64,000 bases of DNA, taken from Bradyrhizobium guangdongense. GTDB taxonomy: Bacteria; Pseudomonadota; Alphaproteobacteria; Rhizobiales; Xanthobacteraceae. The first letter of the stretch is position 1; every line of letters begins with the position of its first letter. Below are positions 25,539 through 54,870 of this stretch, in pieces. The notes beneath the pieces are model-generated. The model was not told where the DNA came from. It saw nothing but the letters and a program-made list of their open reading frames with translations, and did no database searches. The stretch is from positions 5,704,001 to 5,768,000 of the forward strand of contig NZ_CP030051.1 of the NCBI RefSeq assembly GCF_004114975.1, read 5' to 3'. The translations under genes and the position numbers were made by a program.

Positions 25539-26546
25539 TTACGTCTCTCGCGCGCGGATCGCCGGGTCGAACGATTGTAGCACGACACGCCGGATCATGT
25601 CGGCATATTCGCGATATTCGGCAGCGCGTTTGTCGTACATTTCCGCGACCGCGGCCCGCCCGCTGCGCCGCCCGTCGTCGGCCATGCGCTGCACCAACTC
25701 GGCGCGCTCCTCGATGATCCGCAACGCCACCCGCAGGGCTTCATCGACCTGCCCCTCCTGCTCCCTGGCGAGCGTATCGGCGGTATAGGCGTGACCGACC
25801 TGGCAACGAAACCGCATGGGATGGCCACCCTTCACCGCGGACAACACCCCGCCGCAGCTCGGACAGGTCAGCGCCGCGGGATCGGCGATCTTGGCCAGGC
25901 TTTCGGATCCGATCCTTTCGCCGGCTGCAATTTCGACCTCGAGGCGAATGTCGGGAGCAATCGGCAGCGCGGTCCCCGGCGCCTCCTGCGCGAGATCGGA
26001 CAGCACGTCGCCAAGCCTTGCAGCGGGGACGCAGAGATCGGCGATGGTGGCTTCCAGCGCGCGCTGCGGCATTTCCGGCGAGATCGCGTCGGCGGGGTCC
26101 TGGACCAGCGCCATTCCGCCGCAGCGCTTGATGGCATGGAGCCCGGCGGCGCCATCGGACAATAGTCCGCTCAGGACGATTCCGATCACGCGGGGACCGT
26201 GATGCACCGCAGCCGACCGGAACAAGGCATCGATGGCCGGACGGACCATGTTTTCGCGCGGGCCGCGTCCGAGTTGGATGTGGTTTCCGGACAGCAAAAG
26301 ATGGTGGTCGGGAGCCGCCAGATAGACGTGGCCGCGCTCGAACGCCATCCCGTCCACCGCCTGATGCACCGGAAGCCTTCCGGCGGCGGCAGCCACCGTC
26401 GACAGGATGCCGATGCCCTGGGCCGGAATGTGCAGGACAATGAAGATGGCGGCCGGCAAATCGGGCGGAAGCGCCGCCAATATCTGCTTCAAAGGGGCAG
26501 TGGCGCCGGCGGAGCCACCGATCACAATGATATCACGGTTGCTCAT
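25539..26546 (-). CDS. CheB-type methylesterase with C-terminal zinc ribbon
   Basis: 335 residues, no receiver domain. Catalytic triad visible: S12 in GGSAGAT, H39 in VLHIPAQG and the Asp of SGLLSDGAAG (about 130). Past residue 190 comes a linker and then a zinc-ribbon-like block, CPSCGG...RFRCQVGHAYT (about 228-260), and a helical tail. This is the type found outside classical chemotaxis operons, often beside hybrid kinases. There is no obvious CheR partner except the fused CheR in the kinase encoded just downstream on the same strand. Confidence 0.88.
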   Translation of the reverse strand: MSNRDIIVIGGSAGATAPLKQILAALPPDLPAAIFIVLHIPAQGIGILSTVAAAAGRLPVHQAVDGMAFERGHVYLAAPDHHLLLSGNHIQLGRGPRENMVRPAIDALFRSAAVHHGPRVIGIVLSGLLSDGAAGLHAIKRCGGMALVQDPADAISPEMPQRALEATIADLCVPAARLGDVLSDLAQEAPGTALPIAPDIRLEVEIAAGERIGSESLAKIADPAALTCPSCGGVLSAVKGGHPMRFRCQVGHAYTADTLAREQEGQVDEALRVALRIIEERAELVQRMADDGRRSGRAAVAEMYDKRAAEYREYADMIRRVVLQSFDPAIRARET

Positions 26547-33122: not shown

Positions 33123-33249
33123 GACTCCCGCGACGAAATTCGCGACAGGAAGCGCAACGTGATACCGGTCACGGCGCTCGCGTGAAGCATGCGGCATGCT
33201 GTCCACAGTTGCGGGGATGATCCCGCGGCATCAAAACAGGAGAGACAAC

Positions 33250-33486
33250 ATGACCCATGAGATCAATAACGACAGCATCAATTGCGAGCTCTCGATGGAA
33301 GAGCTCAACAACGTCGCCGGCGGCGGCTGGTTCAGCAGCATCGTGCACGCCGTCGAGCACGGACTGAAGTCGTTCTTCACCAACCCGGTCGTGGCAGGGA
33401 TTGCCGCCGGCGTCATCCTGGTCGGCGGGATCGTCACGGGTGCCGGTGGTGGCGGTGGTGGTGGCTCCAACATGAAGCTGAACTGA
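33250..33486 (+). CDS. Double-glycine-leader bacteriocin-like peptide precursor (78 aa)
   Basis: A short precursor with a clear AGGAGAG site before ATG 33250. Leader: residues 1-25, acidic and polar, ending SMEELNNVAGG (the E-L-x-x-V-x-G-G type cut by C39 peptidases). Core: residues 26-78, beginning WFSSIVHAVEHGLKSFF, then a hydrophobic helix rich in glycine (VVAGIAAGVILVGGIV) with GxxxG spacing, a run of seven Gly (41 residues into the core at most) and SNMKLN at the end. This fits a membrane-active class II-type bacteriocin or related peptide. A strong terminator follows, so it is its own transcription unit, converging on the peptide exporter operon. No immunity gene is obvious. Confidence 0.72.
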   Translation: MTHEINNDSINCELSMEELNNVAGGGWFSSIVHAVEHGLKSFFTNPVVAGIAAGVILVGGIVTGAGGGGGGGSNMKLN

Positions 33487-33517
33487 GGGCGGGACCGAAC
33501 AAAGTTGGCTGCCCAAG

Positions 33518-33554
33518 AAACTCCCGGACAAGGACGTCCGGGAGTTTTTCTTTT
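33518..33554 (+). terminator. Intrinsic terminator after the peptide gene
   Basis: A perfect 12-base stem (33518-33529 with 33536-33547, aaactcccggac and its complement) around a six-base loop, followed by ttctttt. It stands 31 bases after the peptide stop and 23 bases before the end of the convergent exporter gene. Confidence 0.9.
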
Positions 33555-33576
33555 GCGCGGAAGGCCGGCGAACGGG

Positions 33577-36459
33577 TCAGAGCATCTGACGCCGCGCGAA
33601 GGAGGCGAACATGCCGGACGCGGCATTCAGCTCGGCGAATGTCCCTGTTTCGACGATCTTGCCGTCGACCAGCACGATGATCCGATCGGCTCGCTGAACG
33701 GTGCTGAGCCGGTGCGCGATCACGATGCGGGTGACGTTCAGGTTTTCCAGCGCGTCGCTGACGATGGCCTGGGATCGATTGTCGAGCGAGCTCGTCGCCT
33801 CGTCGAACAACAGGATGCGCGGCCGCCGCGCGATCGCCCGCGCGATCATGATGCGCTGGCGCTGGCCGCCGGACAGCGTGCTGACGCCCTCCGCGACCTG
33901 GGTGAGCATGCCCATCGGCATCGCCTTGATGTCGTCAGCGATACCGGCAAGGCGCGCGGCCTCCCAGGCCTGCTCGAGCGGCAACCGGATTCCGCCGCAG
34001 ATGTTCTCGTAGATGTTGCCGTTGGCGAGCTTGGCGTTCTGCAGCACCACGCCGAGCTGGCGCCGCAGCGCGCTCGCATCCAGCGTCTCGATCGACTTGC
34101 CGTCGTAGAACACCGCGCCCGATTCCGGCCGCTCGAACCCGAGCAGCAGCCGGAACAGGGACGATTTCCCGCTGCCCGACGGCCCCACCACCGCGACATA
34201 CTCGCCGGGCGTGATCTTCAGGCTGACATTGTCGAGCACCAGCGGCCCATTCGAAAGATACCGGAACGAGACGCGCGCGAGCTCGACCGATCCGGACAAT
34301 TCTCCCGGCGACTTCCGGTCATCCGGGATTTCGGTCGGGCTCGCGATCAGAGGCCGCAGCCGAAGCAGCGGCGGGATGGCGATCAGCGCTTCGCTGACGC
34401 CGGCCGCCCAGGAGCCGACCGATCCCATCGACTGGCCGAAAGCGGAAAAAAACGCGAAGAAAGTGCCGATGTCGGTGAGCAGGCCGCTGCTCGAATAGGA
34501 CGCGTAAGCGTAGATGATCAGCGTCGCGATGGTGGGAAATGCGGTCTCGAACGCGCCGAGGCCGTTGCCGGCCAGCTGCGACGAGACGAAATACTGCTTT
34601 TGCGTCGCAAACTGCCTCGACCAGATCGCGAGCGCGCGCGAGGTCGCAGCCGAGACGCGCAGTTTGCCGACGCCGGTCAGGAGCTGGAGGACAAATCCGC
34701 TGACCTTGCCCTGCTGGTTGAAGTGCTTGCTCTCGAAATGCAGCCGCACCAGATTGGTGCCGATGATGGCGACCGCCCTGAGGAATGTCAGTGCGATCGC
34801 GACCAGCGCCAGCTTGAAACTGTAGTAGAGCATCAGGCCGAGGCTGAACAGGCAGAACAGGCCGGCGATCATGCCGCGCAAGGCGTGACCGGTCAGGGCC
34901 CGCCGCGCCGCATCGATACCCATGGCGCGGTCGACCAGTTCGCCCGCCGTGTACTCGCGGAAGATGGCGGTCGGCAGCCGCAGCAGGCGGTCGATCATCG
35001 CCGCCTGGAGCCGCCAGTCGATCGTGGCCTCCATCCGCAGCATGACGAAACCCTGCATGACCTGGACGCCCGCCACCGACAGGCCGGCGAGAACCAGCGC
35101 GAGCGCGCAGAAGGCGAGCTGGTCGAGCTCGGATCGCGGAATGATCGAGCTGATCAAAAGGTTGGTGACGAACGGCGTCACCAGCGACAACAGACCGATC
35201 ATGACGACCGACAGCGCGATGCGCAGCCCGCTGCCACGGGCGTGGCGCAGCGAGAATTGCAGAAGGTCGGTGAACTTCAGCGCCCGCGAGGGCAGCGGCG
35301 GATACAACGTGGCCGCCTCCGGCGCCATTTGCGCCGCGATGCTGCGATCGACCGCCCGGCGCGCCTTCGTGAGCGGGTCGATCATCAGATAGCCGCGGCG
35401 TGGCTCGTAGACGAGCGCGACCGGGGCGCGCGTCTCGCCGTACCAGCCGACAAGCGGACCCGCATCCAGTCTCCACCAGTCCGACCGGAGCAGGACCTGA
35501 CGGAGCCGCAGCCGCGCCGCCTGCGCGATCTGTGCGAGGCCGGCAACATCCTGCGCGCTGCCGTCGACACGGCCGGAGATCGCAATCGGCGCCCGCATCG
35601 CGCTGCCGACGATCTGGCAGGCGCCGGCCAGCCTGTCGGACCAGGAGGCATCGACCGCGTCATGATCGAAGCGCCGCACGATGATGCCTGAGAGGCGGTC
35701 GAAGGCTTCGACCGCCTGCGATGCGGCGAGCCCGGTTCGGCTCTGCAGCCGCGCGCTCTCATCTTGCGTGTCGCGGACCAGGATGTTCTGGATGCACTCA
35801 CCAAACCACAGATGGAACTGGTCGATCGCCGGCCAAATCAGATCGTCGGCCGGCGCATGGGTCGCAGCGCTCGTGGCACATCCGTCGGTGCCCGCCTCGA
35901 TCCACAAGCCCGATGTCAGAGGCAGCGGCGGGCTCGCGGCGGCATAGGGCGCACCGGTCCCGATCAGCCTGAGCGAACCACGCGCCACGTTGAGCCAAAG
36001 CAGACCGCGCATCGGACCGCGACGCGACTCGCCGCTGGCCAACGTCACCTCGCCCTCCGGCAGTTCGGCCATCTGCCACGACGGCGCCGGTCCCGCGACG
36101 AAGCGGGCGAGCCGCTCGATCCAGTGCACCGCCTGTTCCGGCGCCAGATCGGTCCTGGCCACGACGGACGCCCGCGTGTCCTGCGCGCCGACCGCAATGA
36201 AGCGCAGGCCGTCCGGAGACGACGCCGGGAATCCAGGCAGATCGGGAATGACATCCCCACTTTCGACGCGGAACAGGTGATGGCGGCTGCCGGATCGGCC
36301 GTCTTTGACCTCGATGGCAAAGACGTCGGCGTGGCCGCTGACGATTTCGAGCACGTGACCGTGGTGATCGAGCAGAATGGGCCGGCGGCCGTCGAGGGTC
36401 ACTTCCCCCGCCGCCACGAGGCTCGCACTTGACACGATATTGTCGATGCTGCCGGTCAT
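33577..36459 (-). CDS. NHLM-type ABC exporter, long N-terminal region, no peptidase
   Basis: 960 residues. The first ~430 residues form a soluble region without a recognised catalytic motif; then about six membrane helices (from ~440), and an ATP-binding domain at about 720-960 with [11 protein letters not shown] (Walker A), LSGGQRQRIMIARAI (signature) and LLFDEATSSLD (Walker B). The C39 peptidase of its partner is absent here. The start at 36459 overlaps the stop of the partner gene (ATGA). This is the second ABC protein of the NHLM bacteriocin-system cassette, in which both ABC proteins occur together; the N-terminal part probably has a substrate or regulatory role, inferred only. Confidence 0.88.
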   Translation of the reverse strand: MTGSIDNIVSSASLVAAGEVTLDGRRPILLDHHGHVLEIVSGHADVFAIEVKDGRSGSRHHLFRVESGDVIPDLPGFPASSPDGLRFIAVGAQDTRASVVARTDLAPEQAVHWIERLARFVAGPAPSWQMAELPEGEVTLASGESRRGPMRGLLWLNVARGSLRLIGTGAPYAAASPPLPLTSGLWIEAGTDGCATSAATHAPADDLIWPAIDQFHLWFGECIQNILVRDTQDESARLQSRTGLAASQAVEAFDRLSGIIVRRFDHDAVDASWSDRLAGACQIVGSAMRAPIAISGRVDGSAQDVAGLAQIAQAARLRLRQVLLRSDWWRLDAGPLVGWYGETRAPVALVYEPRRGYLMIDPLTKARRAVDRSIAAQMAPEAATLYPPLPSRALKFTDLLQFSLRHARGSGLRIALSVVMIGLLSLVTPFVTNLLISSIIPRSELDQLAFCALALVLAGLSVAGVQVMQGFVMLRMEATIDWRLQAAMIDRLLRLPTAIFREYTAGELVDRAMGIDAARRALTGHALRGMIAGLFCLFSLGLMLYYSFKLALVAIALTFLRAVAIIGTNLVRLHFESKHFNQQGKVSGFVLQLLTGVGKLRVSAATSRALAIWSRQFATQKQYFVSSQLAGNGLGAFETAFPTIATLIIYAYASYSSSGLLTDIGTFFAFFSAFGQSMGSVGSWAAGVSEALIAIPPLLRLRPLIASPTEIPDDRKSPGELSGSVELARVSFRYLSNGPLVLDNVSLKITPGEYVAVVGPSGSGKSSLFRLLLGFERPESGAVFYDGKSIETLDASALRRQLGVVLQNAKLANGNIYENICGGIRLPLEQAWEAARLAGIADDIKAMPMGMLTQVAEGVSTLSGGQRQRIMIARAIARRPRILLFDEATSSLDNRSQAIVSDALENLNVTRIVIAHRLSTVQRADRIIVLVDGKIVETGTFAELNAASGMFASFARRQML

Positions 36460-38615
36460 TCCTGCGACACCAGGCGAGCATATTCGCCGTTCAGGGCAAG
36501 AAGGGTTTCGTGCGTGCCGCGCTCGGCGACCTTGCCCTGCCGCAGGACGATGATCTCGTCGCAATCCCTGATCGTGCTGAGGCGATGGGCGATGATGATG
36601 CAGGTGCAGCCGCAACGGCGCAGATTATCGTCGATGGCTTTCTCCGTGACGGGATCGAGCGCCGCGGTCGCCTCGTCGAGCACGACGAGGGACGGACGGC
36701 CGACCAGCGCGCGGGCAATCTCGATGCGCTGGCGCTGGCCGCCGCTGAAATTGGTGCCGCCCTCGTTGACGTAGGAATCGTAATTGCCGGCGCGGATTGC
36801 GATGTCGTCCTGGATCTCGCCGTCCTTGAGCGCCCGCGTGAGATCGATGTCAGGCACGGTCCGATCCCAGAGCGTGAGATTGTCGCGGACCGTTCCCTCG
36901 AACAGGAAGATGTCCTGGTCGACATAGGCAATGGAGTTGGCGAGGATGTCGGGCGGGATGTCCGCGAGCCGCGTCCCGTCGATCAGGATCTCTCCCGCCC
37001 AAGGCTTGTAGAGCCCGCAGACCAGGCGGCCGAGGGTCGACTTGCCGCTGCCGGAGGCGCCGACCAGTGCGACGCGCGAGCCCGGATTGACGGTGATCGA
37101 CAGATCCGAGATCAGCGGCGGTTCGAGCAGCGAATAGCCGAACTGCACGTCCTTGAATTCGATGCGTCCAGCGAGCCTTGCGGGGAAGGCCTTGTCCGAT
37201 GTGCGCGGGGGATCGCCGAGCGGATAATTGTAGACGTCTTCGAGGCGGTCGAGTGCGCCCTTGATCAGCTGGAAGCCGCCGGCCTGATTGACGAGCGTCG
37301 CCACCGGCTCGGAAAAGCTCGCCATCAGCGCCTGGAAGGCAACGAGGCTGCCGAGGGTGAGCGAGCCTTCGATCACCCTGAGGCCACCGAGGACCAGGAT
37401 AGCAGTCATCGTCAGGCCGGCGATCAGGGTCGGGATCATGTCGAGGATGATCGACGACGACGCCAGATCGCGCTCGGCGTTCAGGACCTTGGCCTGGACG
37501 CCCGCCCATTGTCCGAACGCCTCGTCCTCCAGCCCGCTCGCCTTGATGGTCTCGATCGAGCGGACGATGCTGACGACGGCTCCCAGCAGCTTGCCGCGTT
37601 CCAGCGAGAGCCCGCGGCTGAGATCCTCCCGGCGCCGCATCGACAGCCGCAAGGTGAGAACGTTGAGCAGCGACAGGCTGATGCACACCGCGGCGAGCCA
37701 ATGGTCGTAGACGATCATCGCGAAGGCGAAGAACACCACCGAGGTGAGGCTGAGCGCATTGGCGGCGATGCCGCCTGCGAGCAGACGCGCAATCTGATCA
37801 TTGGCGCCGACTCTTGCCGCGATGTCGCCGGCGTGGCGCTGCGTGAAGAATTCGATCGGCAAGGCCATCACCCGCCAGAGGAAGCGGCTGATCATCACCA
37901 CCGAGAGTTTCGTCTGCAGCCGCAGCAGCAGGGATTGTTGCAGCAGCGCCAGGATGGTGCGGATCAGCGCGGTTGCGGCCATCCCGATCAGCAGCGGACG
38001 CAGCCACCCGTTCAGATGCTGAATGAGAATGTCGTCGATGAAGATCTTCGAGAAGCTCGCGGCGACGAGGCCGGGCACGACCATGACGAAGCTGAGCAGG
38101 ATGAGCAGCCCGACCGCGGCTTTCGACCCGCGCAGCTCCCGCAGCAGCAGCCGCAGTCCCGCCGGCTTGCCGCCTGATGGCGCAAAGCCCGGCCCCGGCT
38201 CCATCGTCAGGACGACGCCGGTGAAGCACCTGTCGAGCTCGTCGATGCCGATCTGCCGGCGTCCGAAGGCGGGGTCGTTGATGGAGGCGGACTTGCCCTT
38301 GATGCCTTCCAGGACGACGAAATGATTGAAGTTCCAGTGAATGATGCAAGGCATCGGCGCCGAGCCGAGCGATGCAAGGTCGAGCCGAAATCCCTTTGAA
38401 GAGAGCCCGAAACGCTTCGCCGCCCTGACGACGTTGCTCGCCTTGCTGCCGTCGCGGGAGACGCCGCATTCGACGCGCAGGCGTTCGAGCGGCACCCAGG
38501 CCCCGTAATGCGCCAGCACCATGGCGAGGCACGCGGCGCCGCATTCGGCCGCTTCCATCTGCAGGATGGTCGGCGTGCGCTTGATGCCTGCGGTCGGCGT
38601 CACAGGACTAGCCAT
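36456..38615 (-). CDS. NHLM-type ABC exporter with C39 peptidase domain
   Basis: 719 residues. The C39 peptidase domain spans about residues 14-135: Q19 and C25 in QMEAAECGAACLAM, H98 in IIHWNFNHFVVLEG and D114 in SINDPAFG make the catalytic set. Six membrane helices follow (about 160-440), then the ATP-binding domain with [26 protein letters not shown] and LVVLDEATAALD. Such exporters cut double-glycine leaders and export the peptide, so the 78-residue precursor 3 kb away is the obvious substrate. The start lies eight bases into the end of the adaptor gene and the stop overlaps the next ABC gene. Confidence 0.92.
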   Translation of the reverse strand: MASPVTPTAGIKRTPTILQMEAAECGAACLAMVLAHYGAWVPLERLRVECGVSRDGSKASNVVRAAKRFGLSSKGFRLDLASLGSAPMPCIIHWNFNHFVVLEGIKGKSASINDPAFGRRQIGIDELDRCFTGVVLTMEPGPGFAPSGGKPAGLRLLLRELRGSKAAVGLLILLSFVMVVPGLVAASFSKIFIDDILIQHLNGWLRPLLIGMAATALIRTILALLQQSLLLRLQTKLSVVMISRFLWRVMALPIEFFTQRHAGDIAARVGANDQIARLLAGGIAANALSLTSVVFFAFAMIVYDHWLAAVCISLSLLNVLTLRLSMRRREDLSRGLSLERGKLLGAVVSIVRSIETIKASGLEDEAFGQWAGVQAKVLNAERDLASSSIILDMIPTLIAGLTMTAILVLGGLRVIEGSLTLGSLVAFQALMASFSEPVATLVNQAGGFQLIKGALDRLEDVYNYPLGDPPRTSDKAFPARLAGRIEFKDVQFGYSLLEPPLISDLSITVNPGSRVALVGASGSGKSTLGRLVCGLYKPWAGEILIDGTRLADIPPDILANSIAYVDQDIFLFEGTVRDNLTLWDRTVPDIDLTRALKDGEIQDDIAIRAGNYDSYVNEGGTNFSGGQRQRIEIARALVGRPSLVVLDEATAALDPVTEKAIDDNLRRCGCTCIIIAHRLSTIRDCDEIIVLRQGKVAERGTHETLLALNGEYARLVSQE

Positions 38616-39873
38616 CGATCCCCGTCCACTTCCGCAGCAAGGGCACGACGAGGTCGATCGGGCGGCGGCTGCGCGTGGTGATTTCGGCCTGCGCCAGCGT
38701 GCCGCTGGTCAGATGCACCTGCGGCCCCTGACCCACAGCCCAGCGATAGCCGCTTGCGGTCGAGGGATCCTGCTCCAGCGACACCGAAACGGCGTAGGGC
38801 GCGCCGTCGTGGGAGAACACTTTGACGAGCTGATCGTTGTGGAGCACGGCGGTCATGCCCTGCGGCGTGACCGGAAATTCCGAGACGCTGGAGACGACGC
38901 CGATCATCGTGCCGAATTCCTCGCGCTTGACCGTGCTGGGCGCGACGCGGACCTGATAACCCGGCTTGACGCTCTTGCCTTGCTCGGCGGGGATGTAGAC
39001 CACCGCCTCCAACCGCGCCCCCTCGTCCTCGATGAGAACGACCGGCGTACCCACGGCAAGAACCGAGCCTGACGAGGTCTTGATCTCGAGCACGCGGCCC
39101 GCGATCGGGCTGACCACTTGCGAATTGCGCCCCAGGGTTCCCGCCAGCGCCTGCATCTCGCGGCGCGCGTTATTCGCAGCGAATTCGGCCTGCTGCAGTT
39201 CGCGCTCGCGCTGGGTTTCCAGGTCGGTCTTCTGCGCGTGCAGCTTGAGGATCTCGTTCTGCGAATCCGTCCGGCGCTGCTGAGCCTCGGTCAATTCGAG
39301 ACGGCGGTCCTCCAGCGTCTTCCGCGTCGTCAGGCCCTTGGCCATCAGCTGCTCGAGATTCTGCACGTCCACGGCAAGGGCCCGGACCCGCTGATCGGTG
39401 GCTTCGATGACCTTGTTGAAGGCCGCTTCAAGCTTCTCGAAATTGGAGGCCTTGACCGCGAGCTCGGCGGCGACTTTCGCCGCCATGTCGTCATGCTCGC
39501 GCTGGCGCTCCCGATAGGTTTCGACGGCGTTGCGGTACTTCTGCTCGATCTCGGTCTGCGAGATCTGGGCGATCACCTGCCCGCGCTCGACATGGTCACC
39601 GACGGAGACGCTGAGCGACGCCAGCCTGCCTTCGGCAGCGGACACCGCATCGACCACGCGACCGCTGCCGACCAGGATTCCCTGTCCGGAGACGCGTGAC
39701 GGGATCCGGCCGTAGATGCCCCAGACGAGCGCCGCAAGCATCGCGATCGTCACGATCGCCGTCAGGATCCAGTCGGCCGGCTTGGTGATCGCAACGAGGT
39801 GATCAAGCTCCTCCGGCGAGGCCGCGCGCTGCAGCGCGCTGGCGCGGAAGATTCTGTCAGTGCCATCGGTCAC
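38608..39873 (-). CDS. HlyD-type periplasmic adaptor of the NHLM cassette
   Basis: 421 residues. One N-terminal membrane helix (about 33-53), then the biotinyl-lipoyl-like half (GRVVDAVSAAEGRLASLSVSVGDHV), a long coiled coil (about 100-240), the second lipoyl half (VVSPIAGRVLEIKT) and the beta barrel. Membrane-fusion proteins of this kind connect the ABC exporter to the outer membrane. It starts with GTG 39873, preceded by GAAGGGG six bases upstream. First gene of the operon: adaptor, peptidase-exporter, long exporter. Confidence 0.9.
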   Translation of the reverse strand: MTDGTDRIFRASALQRAASPEELDHLVAITKPADWILTAIVTIAMLAALVWGIYGRIPSRVSGQGILVGSGRVVDAVSAAEGRLASLSVSVGDHVERGQVIAQISQTEIEQKYRNAVETYRERQREHDDMAAKVAAELAVKASNFEKLEAAFNKVIEATDQRVRALAVDVQNLEQLMAKGLTTRKTLEDRRLELTEAQQRRTDSQNEILKLHAQKTDLETQRERELQQAEFAANNARREMQALAGTLGRNSQVVSPIAGRVLEIKTSSGSVLAVGTPVVLIEDEGARLEAVVYIPAEQGKSVKPGYQVRVAPSTVKREEFGTMIGVVSSVSEFPVTPQGMTAVLHNDQLVKVFSHDGAPYAVSVSLEQDPSTASGYRWAVGQGPQVHLTSGTLAQAEITTRSRRPIDLVVPLLRKWTGIDG

Positions 39874-52566: not shown

Positions 52567-54870
52567 CTATGCCGCCACGGCTTCGTAGATATCCTCCTCC
52601 TGGGCCGTGTGCATGCGCACCAGCGTTTCGATCGCCTCGATTACCCGTTGAGCGTCACGGACGAGATAGCGATCGACCTTCTCTGACGGCAGATCCTCCA
52701 CGATCCGATCGAGCAGCCGCGTAAGATGCAGAATTTCGCGATGGGCGCGGCTCATGGCTGAGAGGCCGTGGTGATCGCGCAGCACTGTCGCAAGCTTCGG
52801 ATAGACGCTGTCCTCATCCGCGCGCTCGTGCATGACGACGCTGCTCTGAACGATGCGTTGAGCATCCCCGATCAACGCCGCGGCTGACTCGGGGGCTGCG
52901 TCATCCAGCGCATCGACGACCTTGCGCAAGCGATCGAGGTCCTTGAACAGGGCCTGATGATCGTGATGCAATGCCAAGCCCTGCTCCGCGGTGATGTGCG
53001 CACCGCCCCTGGCGAGCGGCGGAGCGAGCGCCCGCAGGGCGTTCAGAATGACGGCAACGTCGATGACCTCCTGGACGATGGCCGCAGGCACCGGTTCAAG
53101 CCAGCCAACGGCGGCGGCGAGCATCGCCAGCAATGACAACCCCATGCCGACAACAATGCTTTGCAAGGCAATGCGTCGGGCCCGTTGCGCGATGATAATG
53201 GCCTCGCCGACGCGATCGAGCCGGTCGGCCAAGATCACCACATCGGCGGCCTCGGACGAGGCGGTCGCGCCGCGCGCGCCGAGCGCGACTCCGATATCGG
53301 CCACGGCCAATGCCGGGGCGTCATTGATGCCATCGCCGACCATGATGGTCGGATGCAGCCTCTGTTCGGTGCGCACCGCCTCAACCTTGTCCGAAGGAAC
53401 GCGGTCGGCCAGCACGTCGTCGAGGTCGAGCGCCGCACCAATCGCCTGCGCCGCCGCGGCGCGATCGCCAGTGACCATCACCATTCGTGCGATCCCCGCA
53501 TCGCGCAGCAGGCGGATCGCCCGCGGCGTATCAGCCCGCAACTCGTCCGCCAGCAGCAGCGCGCCGATCGGGCGGCCATCCACGGCGACGAAGACGATGA
53601 GCGCCGAGCGCCACGAAGCGCGCCGGATCGCCCGCAGCTCCCACGCCGACAGTTCGCCACGCGAGCGCAGCAGTTCTCGCGAGCCCGCGGTGACCTGGCG
53701 CCCGTCGACCAGACCGCGCAAGCCGCTGCCCATGGTCTCCTTGACCTGTTCCGGCGCTTTCAGCTTGAGGCCGCGATCGAGGGCCGCAGCGACGACGGTC
53801 TTGGCAAGCACGTGATGCGAGGCCTGCTCGAGCGATGCGCCGAGCCGCAGGACCTCGTCGGGGTCTTCCCCCGGAGGAACCTCGATCGAAAGCAGCCGTG
53901 CCCCTCCGACGGTCAGGGTCCCGGTCTTGTCGAACAGCACCGTGTGAGCGCGGGCCAGCGCCTCCAGCGCCCCTCCCCCTTTGGCAAGAATGCCGCGCCG
54001 AGCCGCTCGCGCCACCCCGGCAATGAAGGCGACCGGTGCAGCCAGGATCAGCGGACAAGGCGTCGCCGCCACCAGCACGGCAAGGCTGCGCGTCAGATCA
54101 CCGGACAGGCGCCAGGCCAGGAAGGCGACGACGAGCGTCACCGGCAGAAGGACCAGCGCGAAACGATCGGCCATCCGCACGAAGGGAGCCTTCGCGGTTT
54201 GCGCCGCCGTCACCATGCGCACGATGCCCGAGTAGGTGCTCTCGCCTGCCGGTGCGGTCGCGGTCAACTCGAAAGTCTCGCCCGCATTCAGCGAACCGGA
54301 GAGAACCGCGCTGCCGCGTGTCTTCTCGACCGGGATCGGCTCGCCCGTAACCGCGGATTCGTCGATGGTCGCCGCGACCGAGCCAACGATGCCATCGACC
54401 GGCACGATCTCGCCGGCCCTCACCAGGAGCTCTTCGCCGACCAAGACTGCGTCAACCGGAATGTCCTCGATCCCACCATTGATTTTGCGGTGCGCCTGCC
54501 GCGGCGCCCGATCGACCAGGGAGTGCAGGTCGCGCTCGGCTCGTGCGATCGCAATATCCTCCAGCACGTTGCCGCCGGAATACATCAGCGCAACCACGGC
54601 CCCCGCAAGTGGCTGGCCGAGCGCCAACGCTGCGCTCATCGACAGCAGCGCAATCGCATCCACTCCGAAGCGACCGCTCAGAAGATCCCTGACGATCGAG
54701 ACGGCCAGTCCGCCGATCACGGGCGCGGTGCCGAGTTGCCATGCAATATCCGCGAGATCAGCGCGACCCGCCACTCCCGCGAGAAGACCCGCGGTCAATC
54801 CTGCGATTGCAATCGCAACCAGGCCCCATCGCAGGACCCGCTCTATGGATTTGGTCTCGCTCCACATCAC
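52567..54870 (-). CDS. P1B-5-type metal ATPase with C-terminal hemerythrin domain (Nia-like)
   Basis: 767 residues. ATPase core: DKTGT at 314-318, GDGINDAPAL at 512-521 and TGEP at 175-178. Transport-site signatures: T270-P-C-P in helix TM4 and QEVID at 600-604 in the following helix. This pair (TPCP and QExxD) is the P1B-5 pattern. A hemerythrin domain follows at about 625-767 with HHDHQALF, VVMHERADEDSVYP, AHREI and RMHTAQEEDIYE as possible iron ligands. The usual SEHPLA motif reads SHHVLA. Family members such as the Sinorhizobium meliloti Nia protein export Ni and Fe. A FixK/FNR-type box lies 33 bases upstream. Confidence 0.88.
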   Translation of the reverse strand: MMWSETKSIERVLRWGLVAIAIAGLTAGLLAGVAGRADLADIAWQLGTAPVIGGLAVSIVRDLLSGRFGVDAIALLSMSAALALGQPLAGAVVALMYSGGNVLEDIAIARAERDLHSLVDRAPRQAHRKINGGIEDIPVDAVLVGEELLVRAGEIVPVDGIVGSVAATIDESAVTGEPIPVEKTRGSAVLSGSLNAGETFELTATAPAGESTYSGIVRMVTAAQTAKAPFVRMADRFALVLLPVTLVVAFLAWRLSGDLTRSLAVLVAATPCPLILAAPVAFIAGVARAARRGILAKGGGALEALARAHTVLFDKTGTLTVGGARLLSIEVPPGEDPDEVLRLGASLEQASHHVLAKTVVAAALDRGLKLKAPEQVKETMGSGLRGLVDGRQVTAGSRELLRSRGELSAWELRAIRRASWRSALIVFVAVDGRPIGALLLADELRADTPRAIRLLRDAGIARMVMVTGDRAAAAQAIGAALDLDDVLADRVPSDKVEAVRTEQRLHPTIMVGDGINDAPALAVADIGVALGARGATASSEAADVVILADRLDRVGEAIIIAQRARRIALQSIVVGMGLSLLAMLAAAVGWLEPVPAAIVQEVIDVAVILNALRALAPPLARGGAHITAEQGLALHHDHQALFKDLDRLRKVVDALDDAAPESAAALIGDAQRIVQSSVVMHERADEDSVYPKLATVLRDHHGLSAMSRAHREILHLTRLLDRIVEDLPSEKVDRYLVRDAQRVIEAIETLVRMHTAQEEDIYEAVAA

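Follow-up and report, generated by a model that had tools for sequence, protein, structure and literature searches.

A 64,000-nt stretch of the Bradyrhizobium guangdongense genome (contig NZ_CP030051.1, positions 5,704,001–5,768,000; hereafter the window, whose numbering we use throughout) carries at 33250–39873 a cassette that we confirmed to consist of an NHLM-type exporter trio and a double-glycine precursor peptide, P0001. Sequence comparison of 75 such cassettes suggests that across the genus the exporter machine persists and the cargo genes turn over. With a probability of roughly 0.58, we read the locus as an NHLM exporter module whose cargo changes and is probably unmodified and class II microcin-like; here the cargo would be one 53-aa hydrophobic, Gly-rich peptide. 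The exporter is accompanied by a divergently encoded partner protein, P0005.

An NHLM-type exporter cassette with a double-glycine precursor

The host genome comprises 8.44 Mb in two contigs. The three exporter genes all lie on the minus strand, with overlaps of 8 bp and 4 bp between successive genes, and encode an HlyD-type adaptor (38608–39873, 421 aa, GTG start), a C39-peptidase ABC exporter corresponding to NHLM ABC1 (P0003; 36456–38615, 719 aa) and a second ABC exporter corresponding to NHLM ABC2 (33577–36459, 960 aa). All three score above the NCBIfam cut-offs of the NHLM models, at 312.8 vs 156.2 bits for the adaptor (TIGR03794), 1028.5 vs 853.3 bits for the C39-ABC exporter (TIGR03796) and 845.6 vs 709.4 bits for the second ABC exporter (TIGR03797); this adjacent trio above curated cut-offs, with the catalytic triad of the C39 domain in place (C25, H98 and D114), identifies the locus as an NHLM cassette. 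Model searches detected no C39 match in the second ABC exporter, in which the TIGR03797 model spans residues 275–959 and which has a Walker A motif at 759, a signature motif at 862 and a Walker B motif at 882. The P0001 gene (33250–33486, plus strand, 78 aa), with AGGAGAG upstream at 33238–33244, converges on the second ABC gene, and between the convergent genes lies a terminator (33518–33554, plus strand), a 12-bp perfect hairpin followed by a T-rich run, whose 53-nt fold has a z-score of −4.73 and was equalled in stability by 0 of 200 shuffles. An earlier reading made from the letters of the window (the sequence-only reading) had described this gene order, the overlaps and a convergent peptide gene with its own terminator, and our coordinates and hairpin agree with it. 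The cassette is flanked by glo and dinB, between which we recognised solely the peptide, the exporter trio and the divergent protein (no transmembrane (TM) predictor was applied).

The 25-aa leader of P0001 (33250–33324, plus strand) ends in ...ELNNVAGG at G25, just as that reading had placed it, and is followed by a predicted mature core of 53 aa (G26–N78; 33325–33486, plus strand; 5067 Da, isoelectric point 8.6). This ~5.07-kDa peptide, GWFSSIVHAVEHGLKSFFTNPVVAGIAAGVILVGGIVTGAGGGGGGGSNMKLN, has an GWFSSIVHAVEHGLKSFF stretch at its N terminus and then a Gly-rich hydrophobic segment, VVAGIAAGVILVGGIVTGA; its maximum 19-residue hydropathy is 2.25, and one segment appears hydrophobic enough to span a membrane. 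The core contains no Cys, and Ser and Thr make up 6 of its 53 residues. Homologues of P0001 fall into 25 protein clusters at E ≤ 0.01, one of which is named a class IIb bacteriocin in UniRef. The ratio of nonsynonymous to synonymous substitution rates between the window copy and 7 relatives is 0.19–0.58, pointing to purifying selection of moderate strength; these homologues and ratios, with the invariance of G25 described below, suggest that the P0001 open reading frame (ORF) is more than a chance one.

Leader recognition by the C39 domain

P0001 fits the double-glycine (class II) leader pattern, with L14 at −12, E18 at −8, L19 at −7 and V22 at −4 ahead of G24-G25. Among 106 distinct leaders from the cassette flanks, L−12 occurs in 99, E−8 in 67, L−7 in 104, V−4 in 95, G−2 in 104 and G−1 in all 106. 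Neither the NHLP (nitrile-hydratase-like leader) model TIGR03793 nor the Nif11-like leader model TIGR03798 matched P0001 at E ≤ 10, the latter model being one that does detect a precursor in another locus (L044, see Discussion). The sequence-only reading had put the cut at the Gly-Gly; because G25 is invariant in 26 of 26 aligned P0001 homologues and position 26 is variable, we predict cleavage after G25.

By sequence, the closest solved C39 domain is that of LahT (PDB 6mpz; E 2.8e-50, 134 residues aligned). C25, H98 and D114 of ABC1 align with C27, H101 and D117 of LahT, which is not known to be an alphaproteobacterial protein. The LahT recognition motif is confined to the final 13 leader residues, with pockets for V−4, L−7 and L−12, and the enzyme cut Nif11, nitrile-hydratase-type and shorter leaders (PMC6363468). 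LahT is like the window C39 domain in its triad, and its leader pockets fit the P0001 code, but it differs in that it was studied with modified-peptide precursors (PMC6363468). Because this code lies in the last 13 residues, and because cyanobacterial clusters offer a non-NHLP precedent (see Discussion), a short leader beside an NHLM exporter is not anomalous. The sequence-only reading had treated it as an exception for this exporter, and that part of its interpretation falls; the other part stands, in that short double-glycine precursors recur beside the exporter pair across the genus and our searches of the window showed no modifying enzyme near it.

Exported peptides across the genus

We compared regions of up to 17 kb around the 75 Bradyrhizobium cassettes (74 fetched, plus 22 kb of the window; 1.18 Mb in total) with 21 control stretches (19 fetched and 2 from the window; 0.376 Mb), taking as candidate precursors those ORFs of 30–200 aa that scored at least 8 bits against the leader model. 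Matches numbered 158 of 11523 ORFs in the cassette regions vs 0 of 3351 in the controls (best control score 5.6), where the former count is partly circular because the seeds of the model came from these flanks, which lessens its weight for our reading, and the controls are free of that circularity. At least one candidate precursor was present in 57 of the 75 loci. The P0001 family itself occurs in 8 of the 75, in every case (8/8) adjoining the second ABC gene and convergent with it, so that homologous cassettes do carry this peptide, as the interpretation of the sequence-only reading required; at E < 1e-14, P0001 matches are found in 9 of 265 genomes of the genus, namely the 8 cassette loci and genome G160. 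A second peptide accompanies the P0001 family in 5 of the 75 loci.

The 158 candidate ORFs represent 134 distinct sequences, and their cores of at least 15 aa form 39 clusters; a further 9 cores shorter than 15 aa, which were not compared in the clustering and of which two are identical, are counted as 9 of a total of 48 core groups. Nineteen of the 48 groups were found in two or more loci, and the clusters mostly track exporter subclades. Loss of cargo by deletion can be seen directly in locus L069, whose HlyD and ABC1 proteins are 95% and whose ABC2 protein is 88% identical to those of the window, because a scar at L069:2881–3060 keeps only the last codons of P0001 and the terminator hairpin (with a shorter loop), the rest of the gene being gone. 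Locus L072 also lacks the P0001 peptide, and the gap between its glo and ABC2 genes is 69 bp. Near-identical tandem precursor copies (MIEACELIDMELDAVSGG...) stand beside the cassette in L045 and L059.

The divergent protein P0005

The sequence-only reading overlooked one component of the cassette, the 175-aa protein P0005 (40014–40541, plus strand). Profile searches gave no family match above cut-off for it and two weak PHROGs matches. Its N terminus resembles a signal peptide cut before G-V-L-S, as judged by eye from alignments, C78 and C144 are invariant across 53 sequences, and its predicted structure is a four-helix bundle with generic structure matches only. Relatives of P0005 are present in 59 of the 75 cassettes, and all 59 lie upstream of and divergent from hlyD, at a distance of 112–1580 bp. 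Of 265 genomes of the genus, 60 gave a P0005 match (E ≤ 1e-5). All 60 belong to the 70 genomes with a TIGR03794 HlyD match (E ≤ 1e-30), whereas the 195 genomes without an NHLM HlyD gave no P0005 match (Fisher P 2e-49, kinship ignored); in one genome, G168, the P0005 and HlyD matches sit on separate contigs. P0005 distances correlate equally with those of ABC1 and of HlyD (Mantel r 0.95 each), as ABC1 distances do with HlyD distances (also 0.95), in the 56 of 75 loci that remained once those without a complete ABC1, HlyD or partner were dropped. Since shared species history also yields such correlation, Mantel r alone is no proof of interaction; more weight falls on the strict co-occurrence, even if kinship keeps the genomes from being independent samples. 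By its distribution, P0005 appears tied to the exporter machine and not to a single cargo.

Related cassettes in the genus and the order

Loci with and without the partner differ in their candidate precursors. The leaders of partner-bearing loci have a median shortest estimate of 23 aa and their cores a median of 43 aa (137 ORFs), vs 48 aa and a median of 16 aa in partner-less loci (21 ORFs); leader lengths are approximate, as first-start ORFs were used. Eight partner-less loci (L040, L041, L042, L044, L049, L050, L052 and L053) all have a hybrid histidine kinase and a TauE-like gene nearby, and six of these eight also have a LuxR-type response regulator, with kinase and regulator identities resting on one representative each scanned with Pfam. 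These kinase-bearing cassettes would suit a peptide pheromone circuit. Six of the 8 yielded precursors, most of which have a long leader and a short core; nine surround the L040 cassette.

Two clusters of proteins with cyclic-nucleotide-binding domains (representatives L046:6365–6901 and L050:2323–2886) lie near cassettes in 22 and 16 loci, and neither was found in window positions 26001–48000. Three divergent NHLM cassettes (L071, L091 and L106; ABC1 42–43% identical) adjoin very long ORFs, of about 2450 aa or more, which run up to the end of the sequence covered, and the leader model detects no double-glycine precursor in these loci. In a sample of 397 genomes from the order, NHLM HlyD was found in 26, of which 4 belong to this genus; the partner protein was present in 0 of 20 loci from 19 of the 22 other-genus genomes, and leader matches occurred in 7 loci. 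Elsewhere in the window, a gene at 52567–54870 (minus strand) encodes a P-type ATPase with a C-terminal hemerythrin-like domain, according to Pfam matches.

Discussion

In the mechanism we propose, the C39 domain of ABC1 would bind the final ~13 residues of the P0001 leader (L14, E18, L19 and V22) and cut after G25, and the two ABC proteins and the HlyD adaptor, with a TolC-like channel encoded elsewhere, would export the 53-aa core unmodified. The core would then insert in membranes, most likely acting on related bacteria as a class II microcin-like bacteriocin, and P0005 would probably handle, tolerate or sense peptides in the periplasm. We favour a microcin-like role because P0001 has sub-threshold matches to bacteriocin models, because cargo turns over and because no kinase/regulator pair adjoins the cassette, none of which is proof.

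Several observations weigh against this reading. The bacteriocin models that match P0001 all do so below cut-off (the CTB family, NF038167, at 17.6 vs 32 bits; class IIb lactobin A/cerein 7B, TIGR03949, at 15.6 vs 21.5 bits; also BlpC and Bacteriocin_IIc), and we recognised no immunity gene specific to the cargo in the window, again with no TM predictor applied. No precursor was detected in 18 of the 75 regions, several of them truncated by contig ends; 3 of the 158 candidate ORFs overlap genes of the exporter or the partner, and in 10 pairs one candidate overlaps the other. The second peptide that accompanies P0001 in sister loci was not found in this genome, where P0001 alone matches it below E 0.1. 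The strong P0001 homologue in G160 (G160:C167:4370–4579, locus L163) is possibly an orphan cargo used in trans, as no exporter match was found in the part of its contig that was covered (12.0 of 18.6 kb). The GxxxG pairs of the P0001 core, taken without its Gly tail, are no more frequent than composition predicts (shuffle P 0.38). Elsewhere in the genus there are hints of modified cargo, such as Cys in 47 of the 158 candidate cores. Further such hints are a Nif11-type precursor beside one cassette, a radical SAM gene shared by three loci and a sister peptide that passes a modified-peptide leader model, all described next.

NHLM exporters have been linked to modified precursors (PMC2887384), so P0001 might be a ribosomally synthesized and post-translationally modified peptide (RiPP) served by an enzyme gene at some other place in the genome, an alternative that we consider improbable. 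The whole genome gave 0 matches to YcaO and 0 to LANC-like models at E ≤ 0.01, and no NHLP model match above cut-off, with two sub-cut-off matches 1.7 Mb away. It does hold 21 radical SAM matches, of which 0 are in the window and the nearest lies ~32 kb ahead of the window start; a Pfam scan of ten larger genes of the window, besides the cassette and glo, showed no RiPP enzyme. The statement of the sequence-only reading that no modifying enzyme is in the window therefore holds for these searches, not every window gene having been scanned with Pfam. Related loci lend the alternative some support, in that L063, L064 and L107 share a 713-aa-type gene whose L107 copy (L107:10270–12411) exceeds the radical SAM cut-off and scores just under the B12-binding one, but the precursor of these three is another and longer one, with ...DLNAVAGG at its end, and the three are possibly modified-peptide versions of the same exporter system. 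Similarly, L044 has a Nif11-type precursor (L044:177–407, minus strand; TIGR03798, 42.6 vs 32.3 bits) beside its NHLM cassette, and the sister second peptide (from L082) passes the CCRG-2 family RiPP leader model NF033456 (25.8 vs 24 bits), whereas P0001 itself scores 14 vs 24 and its core, as noted, has no Cys and few Ser or Thr. On balance the P0001 core is probably left unmodified.

Export of a cell–cell or plant-directed signal instead of a toxin also seems unlikely for this locus. Quorum-signalling peptides do pass through C39 exporters (PMC6363468), and the partner-less sister cassettes, with their neighbouring kinases, LuxR-type regulators and short predicted cores, would be natural places for such signals; the window cassette, however, has glo and dinB as neighbours and no adjoining kinase/regulator pair, its P0001 core is long, hydrophobic and Gly-rich, and the median core of partner-bearing loci is also longer, at 43 aa. 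About as unlikely, in our view, is a core that stays on the surface as a glycine-zipper protein and acts by contact, like CdzC and CdzD of Caulobacter. Those are proteins of 86 and 84 aa retained at the cell surface, and the Cdz system resembles the one described here in that an alphaproteobacterium uses type I export for small, Gly-rich proteins that are bacteriocin-like and thought to be unmodified (PMC5380434); P0001 likewise has a small Gly-rich hydrophobic core, with GxxxG motifs starting at 50, 60 and 64, and a type I-like exporter in an alphaproteobacterial host. Cdz differs in that its peptides are two, each with an RTX-like N terminus, in that a dedicated three-TM protein provides immunity and in its single ABC exporter (PMC5380434), and in a comparison with Cdz by description only we recognised here no second peptide, no three-TM immunity protein and no RTX-like N terminus; the unexceptional GxxxG frequency points the same way. 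Microcin-like cargo remains the reading we prefer.

For P0005 we put forward, tentatively and as a possibility we hold to be on the unlikely side, a role as a cargo-independent periplasmic guard or chaperone, with which one NHLM exporter could carry changing, unmodified, membrane-active peptides without an immunity gene for each cargo. Such a role would fit because P0005 tracks the exporter (r about 0.95) across many unrelated cargo clusters, and because within the window we could recognise no immunity gene dedicated to a particular cargo.

Parts of this system have been described before. The window exporters, all above the TIGR03794, TIGR03796 and TIGR03797 cut-offs, resemble the NHLM/NHLP trio (PMC2887384), from which the locus differs in a precursor outside the NHLP and Nif11 models, in having no modification gene that we could find and in its additional divergent, secreted-looking protein. 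Judged by gene content, cyanobacterial clusters of groups IV and V hold the same gene types as the window (HlyD, a C39 ABC exporter and an additional C39-less ABC exporter). Their diverse double-glycine precursors average 3.8 and 3.1 per cluster, of which 15 of 61 and 16 of 37, respectively, belong to a class 'Other' that is neither NHLP nor N11P (PMC3140520). The combination of this exporter with non-NHLP precursors therefore has a precedent in another phylum. Differences are that five LanM-bearing cyanobacterial clusters also hold the additional ABC exporter and that the portions of that account available to us mention no counterpart of the divergent protein (PMC3140520). Thus the exporter, and in cyanobacteria its pairing with non-NHLP precursors, are already known. 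Among the open-access literature matches listed, in parts of the text available and with subscription papers outside the scope, we found no account of this Bradyrhizobium system; as far as searched, we found no description of the partner protein, of how strictly it is linked or of cargo diversity on this scale within one genus.

With the NHLM adaptor in 70 of 265 genomes, this system is widespread in the genus and not the oddity of one genome. It combines one exporter architecture and one unexplained partner with small peptides of dozens of unrelated kinds, and legume symbionts are among the members of the genus. A published account of bacteriocin-like inhibition between bradyrhizobia assigned no gene to it (PMC4520892), and the cassette loci are concrete candidates. 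The partner protein makes the tolerance of a producer to many exported peptides a testable question.

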